From Candidatus Geothermocultor quzhuomuensis (GTDB lineage: Bacteria; Actinomycetota; Aquicultoria; Geothermocultorales; Geothermocultoraceae): a DNA stretch of 55,152 nucleotides. A program made the position numbers and the translations under genes. Under the pieces are notes generated by a model. The model searched no databases. It was not told where the DNA came from and was given only the letters and a program-made list of their open reading frames with translations. The stretch spans positions 1 through 55,152 of the forward strand of contig JACVJC010000016.1 in NCBI GenBank assembly GCA_015711795.1, in the 5' to 3' direction. Position 1 is the stretch's first letter; the number at the start of each line of letters is the position of its first letter. Positions 29,165-42,600 of the stretch are shown piece after piece.

Positions 29165-29542
29165 TTAATCTGCACGATTTTGATTTTCAACTAAATTTCT
29201 TTCTATCTCAATGCTTTCGATAAAAAGTTCTTTTCCGGAAAGAATTTCTGCCCCAAAATTAGAACAATTGGGACAAACCAGGTCGAAATTGTCTTTTATT
29301 TCAAATTCCTGCCCACAAGAATAGCACCTCGCCTTAGTAACAACTTCTTCAATTTCAAGCCTAGCTCCCTCAGCTAAAGTCCCTTTACTCATTACTTCAA
29401 AATAAAATTTAACACAATCGCCCACAACACCAGTAATTTTACCAATCTTTAAATTGACCTTTAAAACCCGTGATGCATCATTCTTTTCCGCGTAATCAAG
29501 AACAGTCGAAAAAATACTTTGAGTCACAGCCATTTCATGCAA
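29165..29542 (-). CDS. hypA: Hydrogenase maturation nickel metallochaperone HypA
   Basis: About 125 residues, with a zinc site CYSC...CPNC (about 74-77 and 91-94). The start is chosen as the TTG at 29542 so that the protein begins Met-His-Glu-Met; HypA binds nickel through its N-terminal amine and His2. AAGGTG lies 6 nt upstream of this TTG. An upstream start would bury the His. It sits between the protease gene and hypB. Confidence 0.93.
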   Translation of the reverse strand: MHEMAVTQSIFSTVLDYAEKNDASRVLKVNLKIGKITGVVGDCVKFYFEVMSKGTLAEGARLEIEEVVTKARCYSCGQEFEIKDNFDLVCPNCSNFGAEILSGKELFIESIEIERNLVENQNRAD

Positions 29543-29607
29543 AATAATCACCTTAATAGGAAGTGTTTTTATCTTAAACTATCATTTAAATAAAATCAAA
29601 AAACAAT

Positions 29608-30057
29608 TTAAATTTCTTTTAAAACAGCCTCTATGATTTTGGGAATTTTCTCCTTGATTTCTGAAGTTGGTTCTAACCCCCAATTAATTTCTTTCGGTTC
29701 AACCCCAATTATAACAACTTCAGGAGAGGCTCCGAGCTGGCGTCCAACAGCCAAAACTTCAAGAACACTAATATCATGGAGGGAAAATCTTTTTAACTCT
29801 TTAGAAATCTCAAGTTCTTGAGGTACTAATCGATAAAGAGTTCCTGGTTCTTCTTCCCCTTTAACACAATCAACGATAATAATTTTTTTTGCTTTATCAA
29901 TAAGGGCTAAAAGGCCAAGACCAGCTGTTGCTCCATCAACTAATTTAACCTGGGGAGGTAACTTTATTTTTTCCATCTCTTTAATAACATGAATTCCAAT
30001 TCCCTCATCCTTTAATAAGAGATTACCAACCCCTAAAATAATAATCTCTTCCTTCAA
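29608..30057 (-). CDS. Hydrogenase maturation protease (HyaD/HycI family)
   Basis: 149 residues. It begins with the family motif ILGVGNLLLKDEGIGIHV (about 7-24), whose Glu and the later Asp (VDGATAG) and His (SLHDIS) are the nickel-contacting residues. It clips the C-terminal tail of the hydrogenase large subunit after nickel loading. TTG start with GGTGAG six bases ahead. It follows the large subunit gene by 97 nt and precedes hypA. The expected substrate has an unusually short tail (see findings). Confidence 0.92.
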   Translation of the reverse strand: MKEEIIILGVGNLLLKDEGIGIHVIKEMEKIKLPPQVKLVDGATAGLGLLALIDKAKKIIIVDCVKGEEEPGTLYRLVPQELEISKELKRFSLHDISVLEVLAVGRQLGASPEVVIIGVEPKEINWGLEPTSEIKEKIPKIIEAVLKEI

Positions 30058-30154
30058 AAACTTCTCACCTCTTCTTGATATAAATTCTAATTTCTAATTC
30101 CCCAACTTTTCAAACAAAAGATATTTGAAATTTTGAATTTTTCTTCTCATTAAC

Positions 30155-31678
30155 TCATTTAATAATGTGGACTGCACATGGCAAGCAAGGATCAAAGGAG
30201 CGGATAACCCTAAAAATATTAAGAGGATTTTTTAAGGGAACTGGTGCTCCTTCTAAGGCTTTTTCAAGAGGACCTGGTGTTCCTCTTTCATCGCGAGGGG
30301 AAGCATTCCAAGCCGAAGGAGTAATGCATTGATAATTATCTATCCTCCCTTCCCTTATTGAAACCCAATGACCAAGGGCCCCTCTAAAAGCTTCCCCCAG
30401 TCCAATCCCAACTGCTGAGCCTTTTATTTGGCTTTCAAAATAAACATCACTTTGCCCGTTCTTTAAACTATTAATTAACTCTTCTAGCCAACTAAAAAGG
30501 GCTTCTCCAATCTTAAATGCTTCTAGAGCTCGAGCAGCTAACCTTGCTACCACGCCAAGCTTAATTTCATATCTATTTATTAAATCAAGTAAAGTTTGGT
30601 CCTTTTTAATTAAAAGTCGAGCTAACGACCCAACTTCCATAGGATTCCCTAAATAACGAGGTGCTTTAATGAAAGAGTAAGCTCCCTCTTTCTCTAAATC
30701 AAAATTTGTCTCGTTTTTAGTTGGAGATTTAAGCCCATCATCATCTTGATACCATGAACTTATAACCTCTTCTTCTATTTCCCTCAAATATAATTTCTCA
30801 ATTTTATCAAGCTGACCATTGAAAATCACACCAGGCAAAAAAAACTTTTCCTTAGATAAGGGAGCTAAATCAAACATACCAAATGAAAGATAATTACCTT
30901 GAGCTTCCCCTATCTTCGATTGAGCCAGAGGAAGTAAAGGACCAGTTGCTAAAGCAACAATATCAGCTAAATAAACTTCCTTAATAAAATCGAGTATCTC
31001 CTTGAGAAGATACTGACAGTGAATAATTGTATCTAATGAGGGGCAAAAGGTTATTCCCCCTGGAATAAAAGTCACTAAACCTGGGGATTTTCCCCCTAAA
31101 AGAGCCACAATTTTTTGTGTTTTCTTCCCTGCTTCAAAAGCTTTAAAATAGCTATTCATCATTTGAATAACTATTTCTGGGTCACGAATAATGTATGGGT
31201 CAGATGGGTCATTGTAAGGAGTTAAAAAAGGATAAAAGTCCTGACTATCAAGTAAATTCCTCATATTTTCTTTAATTTTTAAAAGATTACTATCCCCGCC
31301 GCTATATTCAACTAATTTACTCAAATCTAAATAATCTAAAAGGACAATTTGATAAAAATGAAAAATATTATGGGCTAACCAATTTGCTCCTACCACTGTA
31401 TTTCTAACTAATCTTGCTACTTCAGGCATTCTTATCTTAAAAGCCTTCTCCAAGCCAGAACAAGAAACATAAGCATGAGAAGCAAAGCACAAACCACAAA
31501 TTCTTTGAGTAATGATTGGAGCATCACGTGGGTCTTTGTTCTTCAATAAAATCTCAAATCCTCGAGCCGTTTTCCCTACAACCCAAGCTTTTTTAACAAT
31601 CTCATTTTCTACTTCTAATTCAACCCTCATTGGGCCATTAACCCGTAAAATTGGGTCAATAATCATTTTTTCAAGCAC
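30155..31678 (-). CDS. [NiFe] hydrogenase large subunit
   Basis: 507 residues, the Ni-Fe active-site subunit. The L1 motif is RICGLCFASH (C61, C64, H68) and the L2 motif DPCLPCAVH (C498, C501, H504), so all four cysteine ligands are present. Only Ile-Ile-Lys follow the terminal His, whereas related precursors normally carry a removable tail of about 15 residues. GTG start, 8 nt after the small-subunit stop. With the Tat-exported small subunit it should act as an extracytoplasmic H2-oxidising enzyme. The subgroup (group 1 versus others) cannot be fixed by eye. Confidence 0.93.
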   Translation of the reverse strand: MLEKMIIDPILRVNGPMRVELEVENEIVKKAWVVGKTARGFEILLKNKDPRDAPIITQRICGLCFASHAYVSCSGLEKAFKIRMPEVARLVRNTVVGANWLAHNIFHFYQIVLLDYLDLSKLVEYSGGDSNLLKIKENMRNLLDSQDFYPFLTPYNDPSDPYIIRDPEIVIQMMNSYFKAFEAGKKTQKIVALLGGKSPGLVTFIPGGITFCPSLDTIIHCQYLLKEILDFIKEVYLADIVALATGPLLPLAQSKIGEAQGNYLSFGMFDLAPLSKEKFFLPGVIFNGQLDKIEKLYLREIEEEVISSWYQDDDGLKSPTKNETNFDLEKEGAYSFIKAPRYLGNPMEVGSLARLLIKKDQTLLDLINRYEIKLGVVARLAARALEAFKIGEALFSWLEELINSLKNGQSDVYFESQIKGSAVGIGLGEAFRGALGHWVSIREGRIDNYQCITPSAWNASPRDERGTPGPLEKALEGAPVPLKNPLNIFRVIRSFDPCLPCAVHIIK

Positions 31679-31685
31679 TATGACA

Positions 31686-32756
31686 CTACCTCTTTCCCTT
31701 ATTTTTAAGCCTCTTCTTTAAAACCCTCCTAATAAAATGGATTCCCAACCCTACTCCTCCAGCTCCAGCTACTACTTCTCCGATTGAATCTGTTGAAACT
31801 CCTATCCTTTTAAAGAAAGGAATAGGAATACCTGAAATTTCCTCATAAAGAGGACTAAAATCTTTATAAAACCTTGGCTCAGTGCAACCGGCGCAAGGAG
31901 CATTTGCTTTAATACACCAATTTAAATTATCGTTCCAGCCTCGAGCTGGACAATCAGAACTCGTGGCAATCCCTTTACACCCCTTTAAAAGTAAACACCA
32001 ATCTTTTTGGCGAGAATTGTTCCAATCAGTTAAAAACTTACCTTCCTCAAACAAACTCCGTCGCGGACAGCTTTGATGAACCAAACTACTATAAAATAAT
32101 TTTGGTCTTTGATAAAAATCTAACTCAACTGAGCCCACTAAAAATAAATTGACTAAAGTCCCAACAATCCAATCAGGGTGAGGAGGACAACCAGGTATAT
32201 TAATTACTTTTTTATCTAAAATTTCTTGTACCCCCTCAGCTCTAGTTGGACCAGACTTGGGAATCCCACCATATGAAGCACAAGTTCCAACCGCTAAGAT
32301 AGCCTTTGCTTCCCTGGCAACCTCTTTAACTAAATCAATTAAGAAAATTTCTCTTCCATTTAATTCCCCAAAAGAGCAATATTTTCCATTTAAAGGAATA
32401 GACCCATCAATGAGCAAATAATATTTCTCCTTCACTTTTTCCCTAGTTTGAGTAAAAATTTTAAAAGCATCTTCGCCTGCATCAGAAGTTAATTGACTCA
32501 AGAATCTTATAGAAAGTAAATCTAAGATAATCTCAGAAATTGAGGGATTTGTAGAATTAAAAAAGGAAAAAGTACAGCCACCACACGATTGGCCACTTAA
32601 CCAGATGACTGGAGGCTTTTTGATTGCTTTTTCCAAAGCCAGAGCAATGTCTGAAAAAGAAAGCTCAGAAAAGCAAAACATAACAGCCAAGGTTGAACAA
32701 AATTTCAGGAAATCACGTCGAGTTAAAAAAGTTAACTTTTTCTTAAAATTAACCAA
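31686..32756 (-). CDS. [NiFe] hydrogenase small subunit, Tat-exported
   Basis: 356 residues with a twin-arginine signal TRRDFLKF (12-19) and a hydrophobic core to about residue 40. The proximal cluster starts at SCGGCT (C58, C61) and uses later cysteines. A His/Cys pair in VHQSCPR and several cysteines in the SSDCPARGW and CIKANAPCAGC region fit the medial and distal clusters. A glycine-rich hydrophobic segment near the C-terminus ends in a basic tail and may be a weak membrane anchor. TTG start with GGGGGG. No cytochrome b subunit is next to it. Confidence 0.92.
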   Translation of the reverse strand: MVNFKKKLTFLTRRDFLKFCSTLAVMFCFSELSFSDIALALEKAIKKPPVIWLSGQSCGGCTFSFFNSTNPSISEIILDLLSIRFLSQLTSDAGEDAFKIFTQTREKVKEKYYLLIDGSIPLNGKYCSFGELNGREIFLIDLVKEVAREAKAILAVGTCASYGGIPKSGPTRAEGVQEILDKKVINIPGCPPHPDWIVGTLVNLFLVGSVELDFYQRPKLFYSSLVHQSCPRRSLFEEGKFLTDWNNSRQKDWCLLLKGCKGIATSSDCPARGWNDNLNWCIKANAPCAGCTEPRFYKDFSPLYEEISGIPIPFFKRIGVSTDSIGEVVAGAGGVGLGIHFIRRVLKKRLKNKGKR

Positions 32757-32791: not shown

Positions 32792-33487
32792 TTAAAAAAT
32801 TTTTATTAAAAAAATACTTAAGAAATAAAGGGCAATCATTGGAACAGCAAATAAAACCATCGTTACGGGGCTCCAGTCAGGAGTTAAAATTGCTGAAACA
32901 ATCATAATAACAATTAAAGCGTAACGCCAATTTTTTAACAAACTAGCTGGTGTAACAACCCCCAACTTTGATAAAAGAACAACTACGAGAGGGGTCTCAA
33001 AGGATACTCCCAACCCCAAAAGAAAAATTCCAGCATAAGAGATATACTGACTGATACTTAAAGTGGCTACCAGTTTTCCACCTGCCTGACTAAGTAGCCA
33101 TTTAGTTCCAGCAGGCATAATAAACTTATGACCAAAAAAAACTCCAGAAAAAAAGAGGAGAACTAACATAGTAAAGAAAGGATAAGTAAATTTTTTTTCC
33201 TTTTGAGTCAGGGCTGGGGCAATAAAGGAAATAATTTCATAAATAACAATTGGTGAAGCTAAAAAAACGCCAGTAAATATTGATAACTTAAGCTTAGCCA
33301 TAAATGGCTCAAGAACACCAAAGTAATGAAGCTCAATGTCCCCAGCCGGCTCCATTAACCATTCTAATATCAACTTCCAAAAAAAAGCAGAAAAAATCGC
33401 TCCTACAACTACTGCTAATAGTGCTTTAATGAGTCGCTGGCGTAATTCATCAAGATGATCTAGAAAAGGTAAGGGTTTATCTGGCAA
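32792..33487 (-). CDS. tatC: Twin-arginine translocase subunit TatC
   Basis: 231 residues, six predicted spans. It starts MPDKPLPFLDHLDELRQRL, the conserved Tat-substrate-binding N-terminus, and has the FxGVLEPF loop (FGVLEPFMAKLKLS). TTG start with GAGAGGG. It lies 14 nt after tatA and 35 nt before the Tat-dependent hydrogenase small subunit, so it is probably co-transcribed with its main cargo. Confidence 0.95.
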   Translation of the reverse strand: MPDKPLPFLDHLDELRQRLIKALLAVVVGAIFSAFFWKLILEWLMEPAGDIELHYFGVLEPFMAKLKLSIFTGVFLASPIVIYEIISFIAPALTQKEKKFTYPFFTMLVLLFFSGVFFGHKFIMPAGTKWLLSQAGGKLVATLSISQYISYAGIFLLGLGVSFETPLVVVLLSKLGVVTPASLLKNWRYALIVIMIVSAILTPDWSPVTMVLFAVPMIALYFLSIFLIKIF

Positions 33488-35414: not shown

Positions 35415-36758
35415 TCAGCGGAGCTTTCGTCTAATAGGTTCGGACAATTCTAAAACTTCTTTTGCATCAATTGTTTTATACTCCCCATTTAAATAAAGAA
35501 TTTTGCCTCCTACCATAGTTAAGAGGATATTTTCTTGATTAGCTGTATAGACAAGAGCAGAATAAGGTTCCATAGCAGGAACTTGATGGCTATGAGAAAG
35601 GTCAACAGCAATTAAATCGGCTTTTTTCCCTTCCTCTAAAGAACCTATCTCTCTTTCCAATCTTAAAGCTTTGGCTCCACCAAGAGTTGCTAACTCAACA
35701 AATTTTTTCGCCGAAAGTTCGTTGACATCTTGAGCTATACCTCTCTGAAGAAGAAGCCCCACCCTCATCTCATCGAAAAAATCCATTGTATTATTGCTTG
35801 CCGGACTATCTGTTCCTATTCCAATGTTTAAGCCCCTCTTTAAAAACTTTGAAAGGGGAGCCACCCCCATTCCTAATTTAGCGCTGCATTTCGGACAGTG
35901 AGCGATACTTACCCCATATCTTTTCAAAACATCGATATCATAGTCATTAACTTGAATACAGTGAACAGCTAAAACTTCAGCTTCAAACACATCCCAATTT
36001 TCAAGATACTTTACGGGACTTACCCCAAGCGGTTGCCACAATAAATTTTGCCAACCTTTAAGCTCCCTATATTCATTAGCCAAGGGCCCAGACCCATACT
36101 TAACAAAGTTATATTCATCTTTTGAACCTGCCAGATGTAAACCGAGTAGTAATTTTTCTTTACAAGCATATTCTGAAACTTTTTGAAAAAGTTGAGGGCA
36201 AGCATTATAAACGGAGTAAGGAGAAATACCAATCTTTAAATTAGTATTTTTAGTTTTATCGCGCCATTGAGCAACCTTTTCTTTTGCCTCAGATAAAACT
36301 TCTCCTACCTTTAAATGATTCATCTCAGAAACTTCAACAAAAATAATCCCTCGCAAACCACCCTTTTTTGCTGCTTCTAAGCTAGCTCCTGTAGCAGTAA
36401 TATCAGCAATACAAGTTATTCCCGACTGAATCGCTTCTAAGACACCTAATTCTGCTGAGATTTTCCAATCATTCCAAGATAAACTGTTACTTTTCTTCGT
36501 TAACTGAAGTTTCCAATGAGAAAAGGGCAAATCATCACAGATACCTCGAAATATACTGAACTCTAAGTGAGTGTGAGCATCAACAAAACCAGGCAAAATA
36601 ACTGCTTGACCGAAATCTAATCTTTCTTCCTCAAGATAAGATTGGGTTAACGCCACTTTTTTGCCTAGGGCAACGATTTTCCCATCTAAAACTCTAACCG
36701 CTCCGTCCTCAATTGGTTCTGAAGTAATTGGTAAAATCCACTTAGCTGTTAAAATCAT
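35415..36758 (-). CDS. Amidohydrolase, aminofutalosine or SAH/MTA deaminase type
   Basis: 447 residues. Metal-binding GFVDAHTHLEFS (about 58-69), later His residues in GLHLAGSKDEY, LAVHCIQV and IAHCPKCSAKLG, and the Asp in IGTDSPASNN give the full deaminase set of the Atz/Trz/MtaD family. Members deaminate S-adenosylhomocysteine, methylthioadenosine or 6-amino-6-deoxyfutalosine. A polyprenyl diphosphate synthase lies 238 bp upstream, which favours the last, a menaquinone step; this is an inference. The ATG lies just after a period-7 array whose GAGGAG unit may serve as a distant ribosome site. Confidence 0.82.
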   Translation of the reverse strand: MILTAKWILPITSEPIEDGAVRVLDGKIVALGKKVALTQSYLEEERLDFGQAVILPGFVDAHTHLEFSIFRGICDDLPFSHWKLQLTKKSNSLSWNDWKISAELGVLEAIQSGITCIADITATGASLEAAKKGGLRGIIFVEVSEMNHLKVGEVLSEAKEKVAQWRDKTKNTNLKIGISPYSVYNACPQLFQKVSEYACKEKLLLGLHLAGSKDEYNFVKYGSGPLANEYRELKGWQNLLWQPLGVSPVKYLENWDVFEAEVLAVHCIQVNDYDIDVLKRYGVSIAHCPKCSAKLGMGVAPLSKFLKRGLNIGIGTDSPASNNTMDFFDEMRVGLLLQRGIAQDVNELSAKKFVELATLGGAKALRLEREIGSLEEGKKADLIAVDLSHSHQVPAMEPYSALVYTANQENILLTMVGGKILYLNGEYKTIDAKEVLELSEPIRRKLR

Positions 36759-36996: not shown

Positions 36997-37965
36997 CTAA
37001 TGGTACCTTTCAGTAATAAAGTTGCCAATTGAAATTAAATTTTTTTGAACCTCTTTATTTTCTAAACTCTCTAAAGCTGCTAATGCTACCTTGATATGTT
37101 TCCTCGCTTCTGATTTGGCATTCTCTATTGCATGCGTTTCTTCAATAACTCTAATAGCTCGCTCGATATCTCTATCACTCACTCTCTCCCCCTTAACCAC
37201 TTCTGAAATCCTTGGATCAAATTTTGACTCTTCCAAGGCATAAATAATGGGTAAAGTAACAGTCCCATCACGTAAATCAATCCCAGGAGGTTTACCTAAA
37301 ACTTTTTCATCCCCAATTATATCTAAAATATCATCAAAAATTTGAAAGGCAATCCCTAAGCTGTCTCCGTAAGTGGTCAAGATTTTTATCTCTTTTAAAC
37401 TTGCTCCAGAAAGAAGAGCACCTATCTTGCAAGCAGCCGCAAAAAGAGAAGCTGTTTTGTTCCTAATCCGCCTTAAATAACCCATCTCCGTTTGCTCAAC
37501 CCAACGGCTTGTTTCCATTTGCTGAAGCTCTCCTAAGCTAAGAGCATGGGCAGCTTCTGCCATCACTTGGATTACTTCAGAGTTATCTAAAACAGTTAGT
37601 AACTCGAAAGCTTGAGCAAAAAGAAAATCACCAGTAGCAATGGCTATTTTTTTTCCTAAAGCGAAGTTTATTGTTGGAACACCTCTTCTTAACTCTGCGC
37701 CGTCTAGGATATCATCATGAATTAAGGAAGCCATATGTAAAAGTTCAATTGAAATAGCAGCTGGAACAAGCTTTTCTAAATCGTATTCCCTTATGGTTCC
37801 AGAAGCAAGAAGTAAAATTGGACGAAGTCTCTTACCGCCAGCTTGAAAAATTGAGAGAGAAGCTTTTTGAATTGACTCACTAGCGCTAGAGAAAATTTTT
37901 GTAATGAGAGACTCAACTAAGCTCAAACCCTCTTTAATTTGAGGGGTAATTATGTCTTCTTCCAA
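36997..37965 (-). CDS. Polyprenyl diphosphate synthase
   Basis: About 322 residues, trans-isoprenyl chain elongase. It has GGKRLRP (about 44-50), the first Asp-rich motif DDILD near residue 84-88 with RRGVPT after it, and the second motif FDDILD near 210-215. Small residues (M-A-S) five to three positions before the first motif suggest a long product such as a quinone side chain or undecaprenyl-like chain. I use the TTG at 37965, with AAGGTG six bases ahead; the GTG at 37974 overlaps that site. Probably in the operon starting at 40616. Confidence 0.9.
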   Translation of the reverse strand: MEEDIITPQIKEGLSLVESLITKIFSSASESIQKASLSIFQAGGKRLRPILLLASGTIREYDLEKLVPAAISIELLHMASLIHDDILDGAELRRGVPTINFALGKKIAIATGDFLFAQAFELLTVLDNSEVIQVMAEAAHALSLGELQQMETSRWVEQTEMGYLRRIRNKTASLFAAACKIGALLSGASLKEIKILTTYGDSLGIAFQIFDDILDIIGDEKVLGKPPGIDLRDGTVTLPIIYALEESKFDPRISEVVKGERVSDRDIERAIRVIEETHAIENAKSEARKHIKVALAALESLENKEVQKNLISIGNFITERYH

Positions 37966-38095
37966 AAAGTTCACCTTTGTTTTCTCAAAATTATTTAGTT
38001 AATAGCTATAGGAAAAACCATCAAAAATCAATATCAAAATTACAAAGTATTCTTGAAGTTTATTTTTAAAAAAGTTCTCTTAGTTTTACCTCTCA

Positions 38096-39811
38096 CTACC
38101 TTTTAAACAAAAGGAAGGGAATAATTTTAGCCATCTTAAATTTTCTAAAAACTGGTATGGGCCACTCGAGTTCTCTCTTTTCACAAATCGTTGAGGTGCT
38201 ATATTCTAACATTTCCTCTTGGAGATTTTTAAAAACATTTTTCTCACCTGAAGAAGAAATTTTTTCCATTACTTCATCAATCTGCTTTACAATCTCTCTT
38301 GCCTTTAAAATTCGCCTTTCCACATCTCTTGCTGCTTTTTCTTTTATAACTCGATATTTAGCTTTAAGGCGATTTAAACCTAATGCTGCCTCATAAGTTG
38401 ACTCAACAAGTTCATCGCGACTCAGACAACTACTTTCATAGTTTAACATATATTTCCAGCTCGGTTGCAAAAGAGCCTGACGATGATCCTCCAAACTTTT
38501 CGACAAGAGATGATACCCAAATAAAGATGGTTTCTCAAAAACTAAACTACCTGGATCGAGAAAGGGTGCCATTGGTGAAATAAAAACCAATAACCTTCTA
38601 TCTTGAAACTTATGATAAAGGTGATCACAGTAGCCAATCGTCTCTAAAATGGATTTTTTTGTTTGCTTAGGAATGCCACTCATAAAGTAAAGATCGACCC
38701 GTTCGCACCCTTTTCTTAGTGCTTCTCCTAGTGACTCCTCAAGCTCTTCATTAGTATAAATTCCCTTCCCAAAAAATTTTCTAACTTCTTCATCGTGTGA
38801 CTCAAGCGAAATCTCAATACTCCAATGAGGAAGCACCTCTCTGACCATCGACCAAAATCCAGGAGAAGGAGGAGTAAAAAATTCAAAGGCAACTTGATTT
38901 TTTATTTTCTTTTTCTTCAAAGCCATAAGAAAAGTTTGAGTATAATCCTCCCCGGCTTGCAAAAGATCACCCAAGAGAAAAATGGGACCCCTTGAATATT
39001 TTGATATTTCCCCAACATCATTAGCTAAAAGCTCAGGATCACGAAAGGCTGGTTTCTCTCGATTAAAAAATTCTCGAAAAGTATATTTAGAGCCTCCGCA
39101 AGTAACACAGGAGCGCGTGCAACCTCGACACGATAAAGCAGCAACAATTGGATATTCAAGCCAATTAATAAAGGGTACAGTGCTTATTAAATCCTTATAG
39201 CGAGCAGCAAGTCTCATAACAAAGGTATAATCTAAATTAATATGAGAAAGGTTTTGTGGAACATATTCAATTGGGTTATGGTGAATACTTCCTTCCCCAT
39301 CTTTCCAACTCAAATTAGGAATTGAGTTAAGAGAACCCTTCTTTTTAAGAGCCTCTAAAAGGAGTCTCATTGGCTCCTCAGTTGAATCTCCTCTCATTAT
39401 CATATCAACTTGTGGATAATTAATGAGTTCCTTATAGTAATAACTTGCTGAAAACCCTCCAAAAATAATAGGAGTTTGTGGATGATATTTTCTAACAATT
39501 TTTGCAACTTCAAGACTTCCGTGAGCATGAGGAAGCCAATGAAAATCTATCCCAAAAAGATAAGCTTTTAAACTAGCAATAAATTTTTCAACATCAAAAC
39601 GGGGATTTTTAAGCATTCTAAGGGCTAAATTTACAATTCGAACACTAAAACCCTGGCGTGAAAGATACTCTCCTAAAATTGGGAAGCCTAAGGGATACAT
39701 TTCAAAGATGGAAGACGAAGGAACTAAATCACTTACTGGTCCAAACATAATTGAATGCTTTCTAAAATCATAAACACTGGGCGCATGAAGAAGAATTAAA
39801 TCGGGTTTCAT
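38096..39811 (-). CDS. B12-binding-domain radical SAM protein (Ta0216-like)
   Basis: About 571 residues. An N-terminal cobalamin-like domain carries GIDFHWLPHAHG (about 87-98) and IIFGGFSAS (about 115-123). The radical SAM core has CTRSCVTC (C231, C235, C238), preceded by an extra CRG cysteine. A C-terminal helical part of about 150 residues follows. It resembles the Ta0216 family of B12/radical SAM proteins, whose substrate I do not know. ATG at 39811 with GGGG just ahead. It lies between a catalytically degenerate prenyl synthase homologue (26-nt gap) and the polyprenyl synthase (130-nt gap), which suggests an isoprenoid-type substrate. Confidence 0.82.
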   Translation of the reverse strand: MKPDLILLHAPSVYDFRKHSIMFGPVSDLVPSSSIFEMYPLGFPILGEYLSRQGFSVRIVNLALRMLKNPRFDVEKFIASLKAYLFGIDFHWLPHAHGSLEVAKIVRKYHPQTPIIFGGFSASYYYKELINYPQVDMIMRGDSTEEPMRLLLEALKKKGSLNSIPNLSWKDGEGSIHHNPIEYVPQNLSHINLDYTFVMRLAARYKDLISTVPFINWLEYPIVAALSCRGCTRSCVTCGGSKYTFREFFNREKPAFRDPELLANDVGEISKYSRGPIFLLGDLLQAGEDYTQTFLMALKKKKIKNQVAFEFFTPPSPGFWSMVREVLPHWSIEISLESHDEEVRKFFGKGIYTNEELEESLGEALRKGCERVDLYFMSGIPKQTKKSILETIGYCDHLYHKFQDRRLLVFISPMAPFLDPGSLVFEKPSLFGYHLLSKSLEDHRQALLQPSWKYMLNYESSCLSRDELVESTYEAALGLNRLKAKYRVIKEKAARDVERRILKAREIVKQIDEVMEKISSSGEKNVFKNLQEEMLEYSTSTICEKRELEWPIPVFRKFKMAKIIPFLLFKR

Positions 39812-39836
39812 TTTCCCCTTTCTCTTCAAGAAATTT

Positions 39837-40616
39837 TTAGCTCAAAAGGGGGATTTCTTCTATTTCTAAACCTAGTGCAACAAATTTGTTTAGTGCTTCT
39901 TTAACCTCCTTCTTAAACCAAGAATCAATTCCTTCTTTAATCTTTGGGTCAATAACCTCTCCTTTTAAGTATTGGGAAGAATAAAGAAGACCACCAAGCC
40001 CTTGACCAAAGCTTCTCAAGCTCGAAATAACCTCTTCAGAAACCGAACTTAAATATCCGCCAAGATAAGAAGCAGCATCATATAAAGAAACCATCTTTTT
40101 CACCCACTCAACATAACCCTGAATTAAATCCTTGGTTTTTCCTTCACTTGGCAGAGTTGTGGACATCGCTTCGGCAATACTTGCAATTGACTCAGCTAGT
40201 ATTCTAATAACTAAAACATCCTTGAGAGCTGCTACTAACATAATCGCTCTTGAATAATAAAAATCCCCTGTAATAAGAGAAAGATTTGAAGAAAAATCTT
40301 GGTCTTTTTCTTTAGTTTCTCTTTCGTCTTCCTTTTCTTCTTTTTCCCCTTCCTTGTTAAAAGATTTAATAGGATAATGTTCCTCAACAGCTAATTCAAG
40401 TAATTCAACGGCTACAGCTGTGGGAAAAAGTTTCTCAATTTTATAATGGCCAAATTTACCTGAAAAGAGAAGTAAAGTTGCAAGAATTGGTTCCTTGAAA
40501 ATTTCAGCTTTATGGCTGAGAATAGGATGAGATGAAGCTTCTTTTTTTACTTCAGCTTGCACTTTATTTAAATCTTCTTGGATTTCTTCAAAAATCGGTA
40601 TAGAAATTGTTCTCAC
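39837..40616 (-). CDS. Polyprenyl synthase homologue lacking catalytic motifs
   Basis: 259 residues. It aligns with the synthase at 36997: AVAVELLELAVEEHYP (67-82) matches the helix that bears HDDILD there, but His-Asp-Asp has become His-Tyr-Pro. LITGDFYYSRAI (115-126) matches IATGDFLFAQAF. LGGLLYSSQYLKG (207-219) matches the second motif with Phe-Asp-Asp replaced by Ser-Ser-Gln. The GGKRxRP phosphate site is also lost. A charged Glu/Lys insert (about 84-108) replaces the substrate loop. The frame is intact, so it is probably a non-catalytic partner subunit, scaffold or allosteric protein, not a pseudogene. GTG start. Confidence 0.7.
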   Translation of the reverse strand: MRTISIPIFEEIQEDLNKVQAEVKKEASSHPILSHKAEIFKEPILATLLLFSGKFGHYKIEKLFPTAVAVELLELAVEEHYPIKSFNKEGEKEEKEDERETKEKDQDFSSNLSLITGDFYYSRAIMLVAALKDVLVIRILAESIASIAEAMSTTLPSEGKTKDLIQGYVEWVKKMVSLYDAASYLGGYLSSVSEEVISSLRSFGQGLGGLLYSSQYLKGEVIDPKIKEGIDSWFKKEVKEALNKFVALGLEIEEIPLLS

Positions 40617-40637
40617 CTACCCACTATTTCCGAAAAT

Positions 40638-40646
40638 ATTATAACA
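40638..40646 (-). promoter_or_regulatory. Extended -10 promoter of the prenyl-synthase/radical SAM operon
   Basis: Minus-strand TGT-TATAAT (40646-40638), 21 bp before the GTG at 40616. No consensus -35. The predicted leader is about 14 nt, enough for the GTGGGTAG before the start. The rest of the 212-bp gap shows nothing further. Confidence 0.55.
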
Positions 40647-40828: not shown

Positions 40829-41227
40829 TCATTTATCCAGTTCATTACCTTGCTCGATGCTAGACATTATTTTCTTTATTTTTAACCAAAGAAAAAACCC
40901 TATTCCAACCAGAAAAAACATTAAAATATGTTTAATAACTAAAGCAGTTACAATTCCTTTTCCCGCCGCATCCCACCACTCATAACGCTTAAAAAAGATT
41001 GTTCTAGGAACACCACCAATCAATATCCAAATAAGGGAAAAAACCGCCACCCTAGTTACTGAAGAGTAAATTCTCCGAATAAAATCTAGCTTGGACTGGT
41101 CTAGCTTTTCCTCGGAAACACTTCTTAAAATAAAGACCATCACTAAAGCACTTGCTGCCAAAAGCGCTGTTGCTACATCATGAAAGTAATTATTCATCAT
41201 AATTACAATTGGTAACCACTGATTCAT
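40829..41227 (-). CDS. Small membrane protein, function unknown
   Basis: 132 residues with about three to four hydrophobic spans (about 8-33, 58-77, 92-117). His16 in NYFHDVATALL and His in VIKHILMFFL lie within or at the ends of spans and could ligate heme b, but this is speculative. It begins with ATG overlapping the stop of the upstream radical SAM gene (ATGA) after a GGGGGGAGG site, so it is translationally coupled to it. I do not recognise the family. Confidence 0.7.
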   Translation of the reverse strand: MNQWLPIVIMMNNYFHDVATALLAASALVMVFILRSVSEEKLDQSKLDFIRRIYSSVTRVAVFSLIWILIGGVPRTIFFKRYEWWDAAGKGIVTALVIKHILMFFLVGIGFFLWLKIKKIMSSIEQGNELDK

Positions 41228-42600
41228 CCTCCCCCCTTTCCTTCAAGGAGAAGATTTTTAATTTCTTTCAAGTCAAGATCCTTCCCAGCTTCCAAAACTT
41301 CCCGAAAAGCCCGACCTTGAGGATATTGAATCATCCAAGACATAAAATGGGAAGCCGGAAACCCAACCCAGGAAACCTTAAATATTCTCTTTAAAATTCG
41401 AGGCAAAGTAAAGAGTTCAGCTCGAAGCCACAACAATGCTTTTTCTCGATTTTCCTTAGTCATTAAAGGGTCTGGGTGTTCAAACAAAGCTTGATTGCCG
41501 TCAAAATAATCCCAATCGTAACCAGGAAAAAGGTAAGGCTGATACTCCTTGTAAAGTTCCGTGCCGGGGAATGGAGTCACCATCGTTGGATGAGCAGCGA
41601 CATCGTACTTATCGCAAAGCTCTAAAATCCTGAGATAATCTTCCAGGCTTTCTTTTCTTCCGCCTACCATAACAAAAAGCATAACTTCAATTCCATGATC
41701 GCGAATTTTTTTAATTGAATCCACACGCCGCTTGCCCTGCTTAGACAGAGCGCGGTACTCTTTTAAAGCTTCAAAGTTTTCACTTTCCCAGCCAACTAAA
41801 ACCGCTCTCAAGCCTGCTCTTCTTGCCCAGGTTAAAAGTTCATCAGCCCGAGGATGCTCAACTGTCACCAGATCAGCTGAACCAAACCAGTATTTAAACT
41901 TAATGTTTTTCGCCATCTCTTTATAAAGTTCAATGTTTCGAGAAACCTTTGTCCCCCAGACATTGTCATCTATCCCCCAGAAAAGGCGACGAGGGGAAGA
42001 AGCTACTTCATTAACCACTTCTTCAATCGGTCTAAACCTGATACGCTGACCAAAAAATTTATAAACTGAGCAAAAAGCACATTTAAAAGGGCAACCGCGA
42101 GCGCTAAAAAAGGAACCAAAAAGATAGTTATGATTGTGTTTCCATAAATCAGTTACAGGATAAGGTAAGCCTTCCAGAATAGGTCTCTCGCCTGAATAAA
42201 CTGGTTTAAGATTACCACTTTGCACATCATCAAGAACATCACCCCAAAAGTTTTCTACCTCACCAAGAACGATGCTGTCTGCGTGCTCTTTTGCTTCATC
42301 AGGAAGAATAGTGGTATGAATCCCGCCTAAAATTGTTTTGATACCGCATTTCCTTAAGGCATCACTCATTCGATAAACCCAGGGTGCTTGGGGAGTAAGG
42401 ACAGTGAATCCAACAAGGTCGGCTTCAATCGCATCGGGCTGGAATTCTTCTAAGTTGGCATCAATCAGCTCAACCTCAACCCCAGGTCGGATTTTCTGCG
42501 TCAAGCCAGCCAGGTACTCTAAAACGGGCGGAGCAATCGGTAAACCCTTGCTTTTTTGCCCGTGCTCACCAAAAGGTGGCGAAACTAAAACAACCCTCAT
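41224..42600 (-). CDS. B12-binding-domain radical SAM protein
   Basis: 458 residues. The N-terminal cobalamin-type domain (1-135) carries LVSPPFGEHG and TILGGIHTTILP (about 89-100). The radical SAM core has C170-x3-C174-x2-C177 (ARGCPFKCAFC), then WGIDDNVWG and VGWESEN strands. It shares the layout and several motifs (GQRIRFRPIEEVVNEV versus GNRIRYRPVKEVVNEI) with the protein at 16399, so both are paralogues of the class B methylase/hopanoid-type group. ATG with AAGGA ahead. Translationally coupled to the small membrane protein, which suggests a membrane-embedded (lipid or quinone) substrate. Confidence 0.83.
   Translation of the reverse strand: MRVVLVSPPFGEHGQKSKGLPIAPPVLEYLAGLTQKIRPGVEVELIDANLEEFQPDAIEADLVGFTVLTPQAPWVYRMSDALRKCGIKTILGGIHTTILPDEAKEHADSIVLGEVENFWGDVLDDVQSGNLKPVYSGERPILEGLPYPVTDLWKHNHNYLFGSFFSARGCPFKCAFCSVYKFFGQRIRFRPIEEVVNEVASSPRRLFWGIDDNVWGTKVSRNIELYKEMAKNIKFKYWFGSADLVTVEHPRADELLTWARRAGLRAVLVGWESENFEALKEYRALSKQGKRRVDSIKKIRDHGIEVMLFVMVGGRKESLEDYLRILELCDKYDVAAHPTMVTPFPGTELYKEYQPYLFPGYDWDYFDGNQALFEHPDPLMTKENREKALLWLRAELFTLPRILKRIFKVSWVGFPASHFMSWMIQYPQGRAFREVLEAGKDLDLKEIKNLLLEGKGGG

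Follow-up and report, generated by a model that had tools for sequence, protein, structure and literature searches.

A conserved cluster pairing an intact and a motif-less polyprenyl synthase with a TIGR04190 radical SAM protein, and its probable connection to respiratory quinones

The window considered here is the whole of a 55,152-nucleotide stretch of DNA from the subsurface actinobacterium Candidatus Geothermocultor quzhuomuensis (assembly GCA_015711795.1, contig JACVJC010000016.1, positions 1 to 55,152). It includes three minus-strand genes with open frames, the products of which are referred to as S (a polyprenyl diphosphate synthase), R (a B12-binding radical SAM protein) and P (a homologue of S in which the catalytic motifs are replaced). 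Their positions and those of recurrent neighbours are given in Table 1. The ATG at 39811 (571 aa), which is preceded by a ribosome-binding-like AAAGGGG, appears a likelier start for R than the TTG. The comparisons below use sequences, gene order and modelled folds, for the most part of metagenome-assembled genomes.

Table 1. Genes of the cluster and its neighbourhood in the window
Feature	Position	Strand	Remarks
P: catalytically dead prenyl-synthase homologue, proposed non-catalytic subunit	39837..40616	-	259 aa, GTG start
R: TIGR04190 (Ta0216-type) B12-binding radical SAM protein	38096..39829	-	577 aa from TTG
S: catalytic long-chain trans-polyprenyl diphosphate synthase, HepT-like	36997..37974	-	325 aa
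Amidohydrolase, SAH/MTA/5'-deoxyadenosine deaminase group	35415..36758	-	PF01979, 186 bits
TatC, recurrent cluster neighbour	32792..33487	-	TIGR00945, 188 bits, over cut-off
NiFe hydrogenase large and small subunits, maturation protease, HypA	29165..32756	-	Pfam matches

Downstream of S the order is amidohydrolase, TPR protein, phosphoribosyltransferase, TatC and NiFe hydrogenase, and the hydrogenase block, which provides a respiratory context, is kept downstream of the cluster in several relatives. The amidohydrolase is a conserved neighbour of S and R, occurring at 30 of 80 TIGR04190 loci, and scores 260 bits against the 5'-deoxyadenosine deaminase model, which is under the cut-off. An aminofutalosine deaminase is the less likely assignment, as it scores 189 bits (cut-off 320), and this reading is further weakened by the persistence of the gene in a host without MqnA/D. 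Scans for promoters and terminators yielded nothing beyond chance level. Upstream lie a second B12-radical SAM protein (41224-42600), which is BchE/HpnR-like and reaches none of the NCBIfam cut-offs, and a membrane protein of 132 aa (40829-41227) with no significant family match; the closest relative, L096, keeps both genes near its cluster.

S retains all of its characteristic motifs (AGGKRLRP, HDDILD and FDDILD), matches PF00348 with 234.6 bits and has HepT as its best NCBIfam model (289 bits, under the equivalog cut-off of that model). In a joint alignment of S and P proteins, GGKRxRP and both Asp pairs are present in 30/30 S proteins and in 0/24 P proteins. These sequence features mark S as an intact synthase of long-chain trans-prenyl diphosphates. 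The host's sole other trans-prenyl synthase (C7) adjoins a DXS-like gene and, to judge by its length and gene order, appears to be of the short-chain type, so the making of long tails would be left to S.

P reads HYPIK at the position of the first Asp motif, lacks GGKRxRP and has no Asp pair at the second motif (the SSQYL region); instead it carries a conserved HY and a GDYYYA-like block. It is shorter than S, and the C-terminal part of S is absent from it. Searched alone, P matches polyprenyl_synt (PF00348) with E=1.4e-5 (24.9 bits, just below the 27-bit cut-off) and the HepT model with 6.5e-12, while a profile of 23 P proteins finds Bacillus subtilis HepT in the PDB with E=1.6e-19; chance does not account for the relation. 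The structural model of P (pLDDT 86.9, pTM 0.86) predicts the all-alpha prenyl-synthase fold, and the best 50 PDB matches listed for it are all polyprenyl synthases, with TM up to 0.68. Profile, fold and alignment thus agree with the first-pass annotation, which had described the protein at 39837 as a prenyl-synthase homologue with an open frame and replaced catalytic motifs. Against the HepS-type family HEPPP_synt_1 (PF07307), P scores 18.6 bits where the cut-off is 30, and three of 23 P family members match that family at E<0.01; P is therefore classed as probably working like HepS and not as a HepS. Identity between the P of the window and its relatives is 19-51%. Among close relatives P has a dN/dS of 0.24-0.47 and S one of 0.06-0.22, so that P evolves faster than S; the values for P indicate purifying selection, and P is accordingly maintained and not debris.

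Within the window's class 24 of the 36 genomes carry P, as do three genomes from other classes of its phylum, and P always accompanies S. The order P-R-(UbiE)-S occurs in 14 genomes, with UbiE between R and S in seven of them, and the first two genes are separated by 7 bases in the window and overlap by 4 bases in G013 and G007. In a further arrangement, seen in 10 genomes, P lies directly upstream of S with no R in the cluster; here the spacing is -53 to +136 bases, some of the pairs overlapping, and the redox regulator Rex is often found upstream. Conversely, R is present and P is not in Coriobacteriia, Chloroflexota and other groups. The trio first noted in the window is real and conserved, but P tracks S, not R. 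Neither of the outcomes named beforehand as refuting the first-pass reading, no relation of P to prenyl synthases or no co-occurrence of the three genes in related genomes, was seen. The earlier proposal that the dead homologue acts as a partner holds in the sense that P is most likely a partner of S; a partnership of P with R is disfavoured by the 10 genomes in which P adjoins S without R and by the groups that have R without P. Candidate P genes in L064 and L098 score 15-24 bits and are not assigned to P. Other upstream genes that were considered proved to be something else: those of 215-260 aa in Coriobacteriia and others, taken as possible extra copies of P, are Rex-type regulators, and those of 318 aa in Anaerolineae, taken as possible prenyl enzymes, are MoxR ATPases.

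R matches TIGR04190 with 671.9 bits (cut-off 500), exceeds the cut-offs of both PF02310 (B12-binding) and PF04055 (radical SAM), and carries the cluster motif CRGCTRSCVTC (CX3CX2C). A search by sequence profile returned no solved relatives at E<=0.001. The predicted structure (pLDDT 87.6) is nearest in fold to the cobalamin radical SAM enzymes TsrM, MgmA, TokK, OxsB and CysS. In its domains, CX3CX2C motif and modelled fold, R fits a class B cobalamin-dependent radical SAM methylase, with putative methyl transfer to carbon. In the R proteins of L095, L100, L101, L102 and L103 the motif reads CRGGxxxCxxC, the first Cys of CX3CX2C being replaced by Gly; a Cys three residues earlier suggests a CX6CX2C cluster motif in these proteins. 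At L137, L155, L178 and L179 the gene immediately upstream of TIGR04190 encodes another radical SAM protein, and the one that was scanned (L137) has TIGR03961 (PTO1314 family) as its best match, with 124 bits, under the cut-off.

The neighbourhood of R was surveyed at 80 named TIGR04190 loci, at 42 of which a quinone-type gene (synthase, UbiE, MenA-like or P) lies on the same strand within 5 kb; among the loci with full 5-kb flanks the count is 26 of 37. Rex is nearby at 15 of the 80 and TatC at 10. About half of the loci, many of them from Chloroflexota, have no quinone gene nearby, and many are on short contigs. The clustering of R with synthase, UbiE and MenA-like genes is tight, sometimes overlapping, and extends across unrelated phyla: environmental Coriobacteriia have the order R-UbiE-amidohydrolase, often with Rex upstream; a MenA-like prenyltransferase precedes R in Dehalococcoidia, Aerophobetes, Zixibacteria and Spirochaetales; and S lies two genes upstream of R in a Chitinivibrionales genome. 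Quinone-type genes are few per genome, so clustering of this extent should be far above chance. From the 42 loci with such neighbours it follows that R probably tailors prenylquinones, a reading that rests on gene neighbourhood. The suggestion that the B12-radical SAM protein acts on a polyprenyl product accordingly gains from quinone-gene neighbours in several phyla, and the product can be narrowed to a respiratory quinone. Synteny alone does not identify the substrate or the reaction of R.

Family searches of the host genome, which is rated 100% complete, found no MqnA/D, UbiD or MenD over cut-off, and no complete quinone ring pathway was recognised. The host does have a MenA-like protein (123.7 bits, under cut-off) and a UbiE protein (252 bits, over the subfamily cut-off). 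MqnA/D is present in most P-bearing relatives, and the clusters inspected in relatives resemble futalosine clusters and contain UbiA, UbiD and UbiX genes of their own, these three having been identified by eye from size, order and the first residues of the sequences. The presence of P and that of MqnA/D agree in 30 of the 36 class members (21/3/3/9; Fisher p=4e-4, uncorrected for relatedness), and in two of the discordant genomes, G002 and G024, the contigs that hold the cluster are short. In both genomes of family f29 (G052 and G066) and in G053, R and S are also present and neither MqnA/D nor MenD exceeds the cut-off. This situation could reflect a ring precursor that is salvaged, a ring not yet known, or incomplete assemblies. 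On a bolder reading, which we regard as doubtful, an unusual respiratory quinone spread over anaerobic Actinomycetota, Chloroflexota and others would have its missing enzyme in TIGR04190, and the host, which has neither of the known menaquinone ring pathways yet has a tail synthase, a MenA-like protein, UbiE and R, would make or salvage a quinone not so far described.

Several further observations were made on quinone genes. MenA-like prenyltransferases that start FLETRPQFL occur in the host and its relatives (L208:6485-7393, L193:9295-10212, L209:2611-3537), lie away from the futalosine cluster where one exists, and have relatives that adjoin TIGR04190 in Dehalococcoidia and other Chloroflexota (L138, L146, L158, L161). 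Many relatives (G003, G009 and the f5 genomes) have only one PF02621 (MqnA/D family) protein where two are expected. A 712-aa frame of the host (C1:44515-46263) matches TIGR03961 (76 bits) and UbiE (71.5 bits), which suggests a radical SAM-methyltransferase fusion.

These findings are best brought together in a single model, to which we give a probability of about 0.6, in which P and S form a heteromeric synthase for quinone tails and R tailors the prenylated quinone. The model builds on homology, motif loss, fold, selection and conserved clustering, and from these we infer a P-S complex, a quinone substrate and methylation. A conserved pair consisting of a catalytic and a motif-less homologous subunit, as expected for heteromeric synthases, is what the genomes contain. 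Since P always occurs with S, including in the 10 genomes with no R in the cluster, it is most likely the non-catalytic subunit, standing to S as HepS does to HepT. S would condense isopentenyl diphosphate onto an allylic primer, and P, with no active site, would complete the dimer and help to set chain length or activity. The tail would then be put onto a quinone ring by a MenA/UbiA-type prenyltransferase together with UbiE, after which R would act on the prenylated quinone by a cobalamin-dependent radical mechanism, most likely C-methylation of ring or tail. The amidohydrolase beside the cluster would clear S-adenosylhomocysteine and 5'-deoxyadenosine. Quinone C-methylation is the leading guess, as yet unproven, because the fold predicted for R is nearest to TsrM, MgmA, TokK, OxsB and CysS.

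Other chemistry on the quinone ring or tail, such as cyclisation, methylthiolation or dehydrogenation, is unlikely but merits serious consideration. A fold of the R type is capable of other chemistry, as OxsB demonstrates, and both OxsB and AprD4 are among the structural matches of R. Methionaquinone and omega-cyclic menaquinone are, moreover, without known enzymes (PMC13386864). Against this, the closest solved structures are mostly methylases, and the amidohydrolase nearby is related to SAH and deoxyadenosine deaminases. It is rather unlikely that R acts on another isoprenoid or lipid (a carrier or a tetraether-like lipid) or on a maturation target of a respiratory enzyme, with the quinone genes marking a general respiratory region: some TIGR04190 loci do lie near cytochrome c assembly, formate dehydrogenase, SelA, TatC or MoxR-DUF58 genes instead, but unrelated phyla repeatedly show R in close association with synthase, UbiE and MenA-like genes. 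With respect to P, a role of its own in binding or carrying polyprenyls, with prenyl diphosphate or quinone handed on to R or to the prenyltransferase, instead of one as a synthase subunit, would account for the missing C-terminal part and for the position of P closest to R in the window and several relatives, and is nonetheless improbable given that P adjoins S where R is absent from the cluster and that other groups have R without P. Decay of a paralogue, or a frozen and functionless duplication, would suit the very fast divergence and the loss of every catalytic motif and is highly improbable, a pseudogene being rejected in view of purifying selection, a frame open in 24 genomes, and the conserved HY and GDYYYA-like motifs and operon position.

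Among known radical SAM modifiers of menaquinone, MenK, MenK2 and MqnK resemble the proposed R in their role; however, the radical methylases known for menaquinone belong to the HemN-like class C (PMC10320005), whereas R is B12-binding and belongs to another family. R is a clear member, over the equivalog cut-off, of TIGR04190 (Ta0216), a family without an assigned function, and for this orphan B12-radical SAM family a testable function is now offered. A literature search short of most subscription journals found no mention of TIGR04190/Ta0216 or of the P/R/S gene set, so the link between TIGR04190 and quinone genes is new as far as that literature shows, and an earlier mention is possible. 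The UbiE proteins of two operons of the P/R/S type match best to MpqE of the methyl-plastoquinone pathway of Nitrospirota (MpqA-E), with 272-280 bits, under the cut-off of 335, MpqE being the one Mpq gene compared. According to a 2026 survey, many bacterial lineages, mostly of Bacillota and Chloroflexota, appear to be without quinone pathways, and there are several rare quinones for which no enzymes are known (PMC13386864). In lineages of this sort, any gene regularly found together with quinone genes is a direct lead.

Heteromeric long-chain synthases in which a motif-less subunit sets chain length are established in HexA/HexB and HepS/HepT (PMC7839719). The first-pass annotation knew of no described system with this trio; the full gene set was indeed not found in the literature, but the active and dead synthase pair is a variant of this known arrangement. 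As in S and P, one subunit of HepS/HepT (B. subtilis, PDB 9kp1) and of HexA/HexB (M. luteus) has both Asp-rich motifs and its partner has neither, and both systems make long prenyl chains such as serve as the tails of quinones; among the NCBIfam models HepT is the one nearest to S. P is only weakly similar to HepS and is recognisably derived from the catalytic family, and P and S would represent a second lineage of two-part quinone-tail synthases, to which the cluster in the window adds the TIGR04190 radical enzyme.
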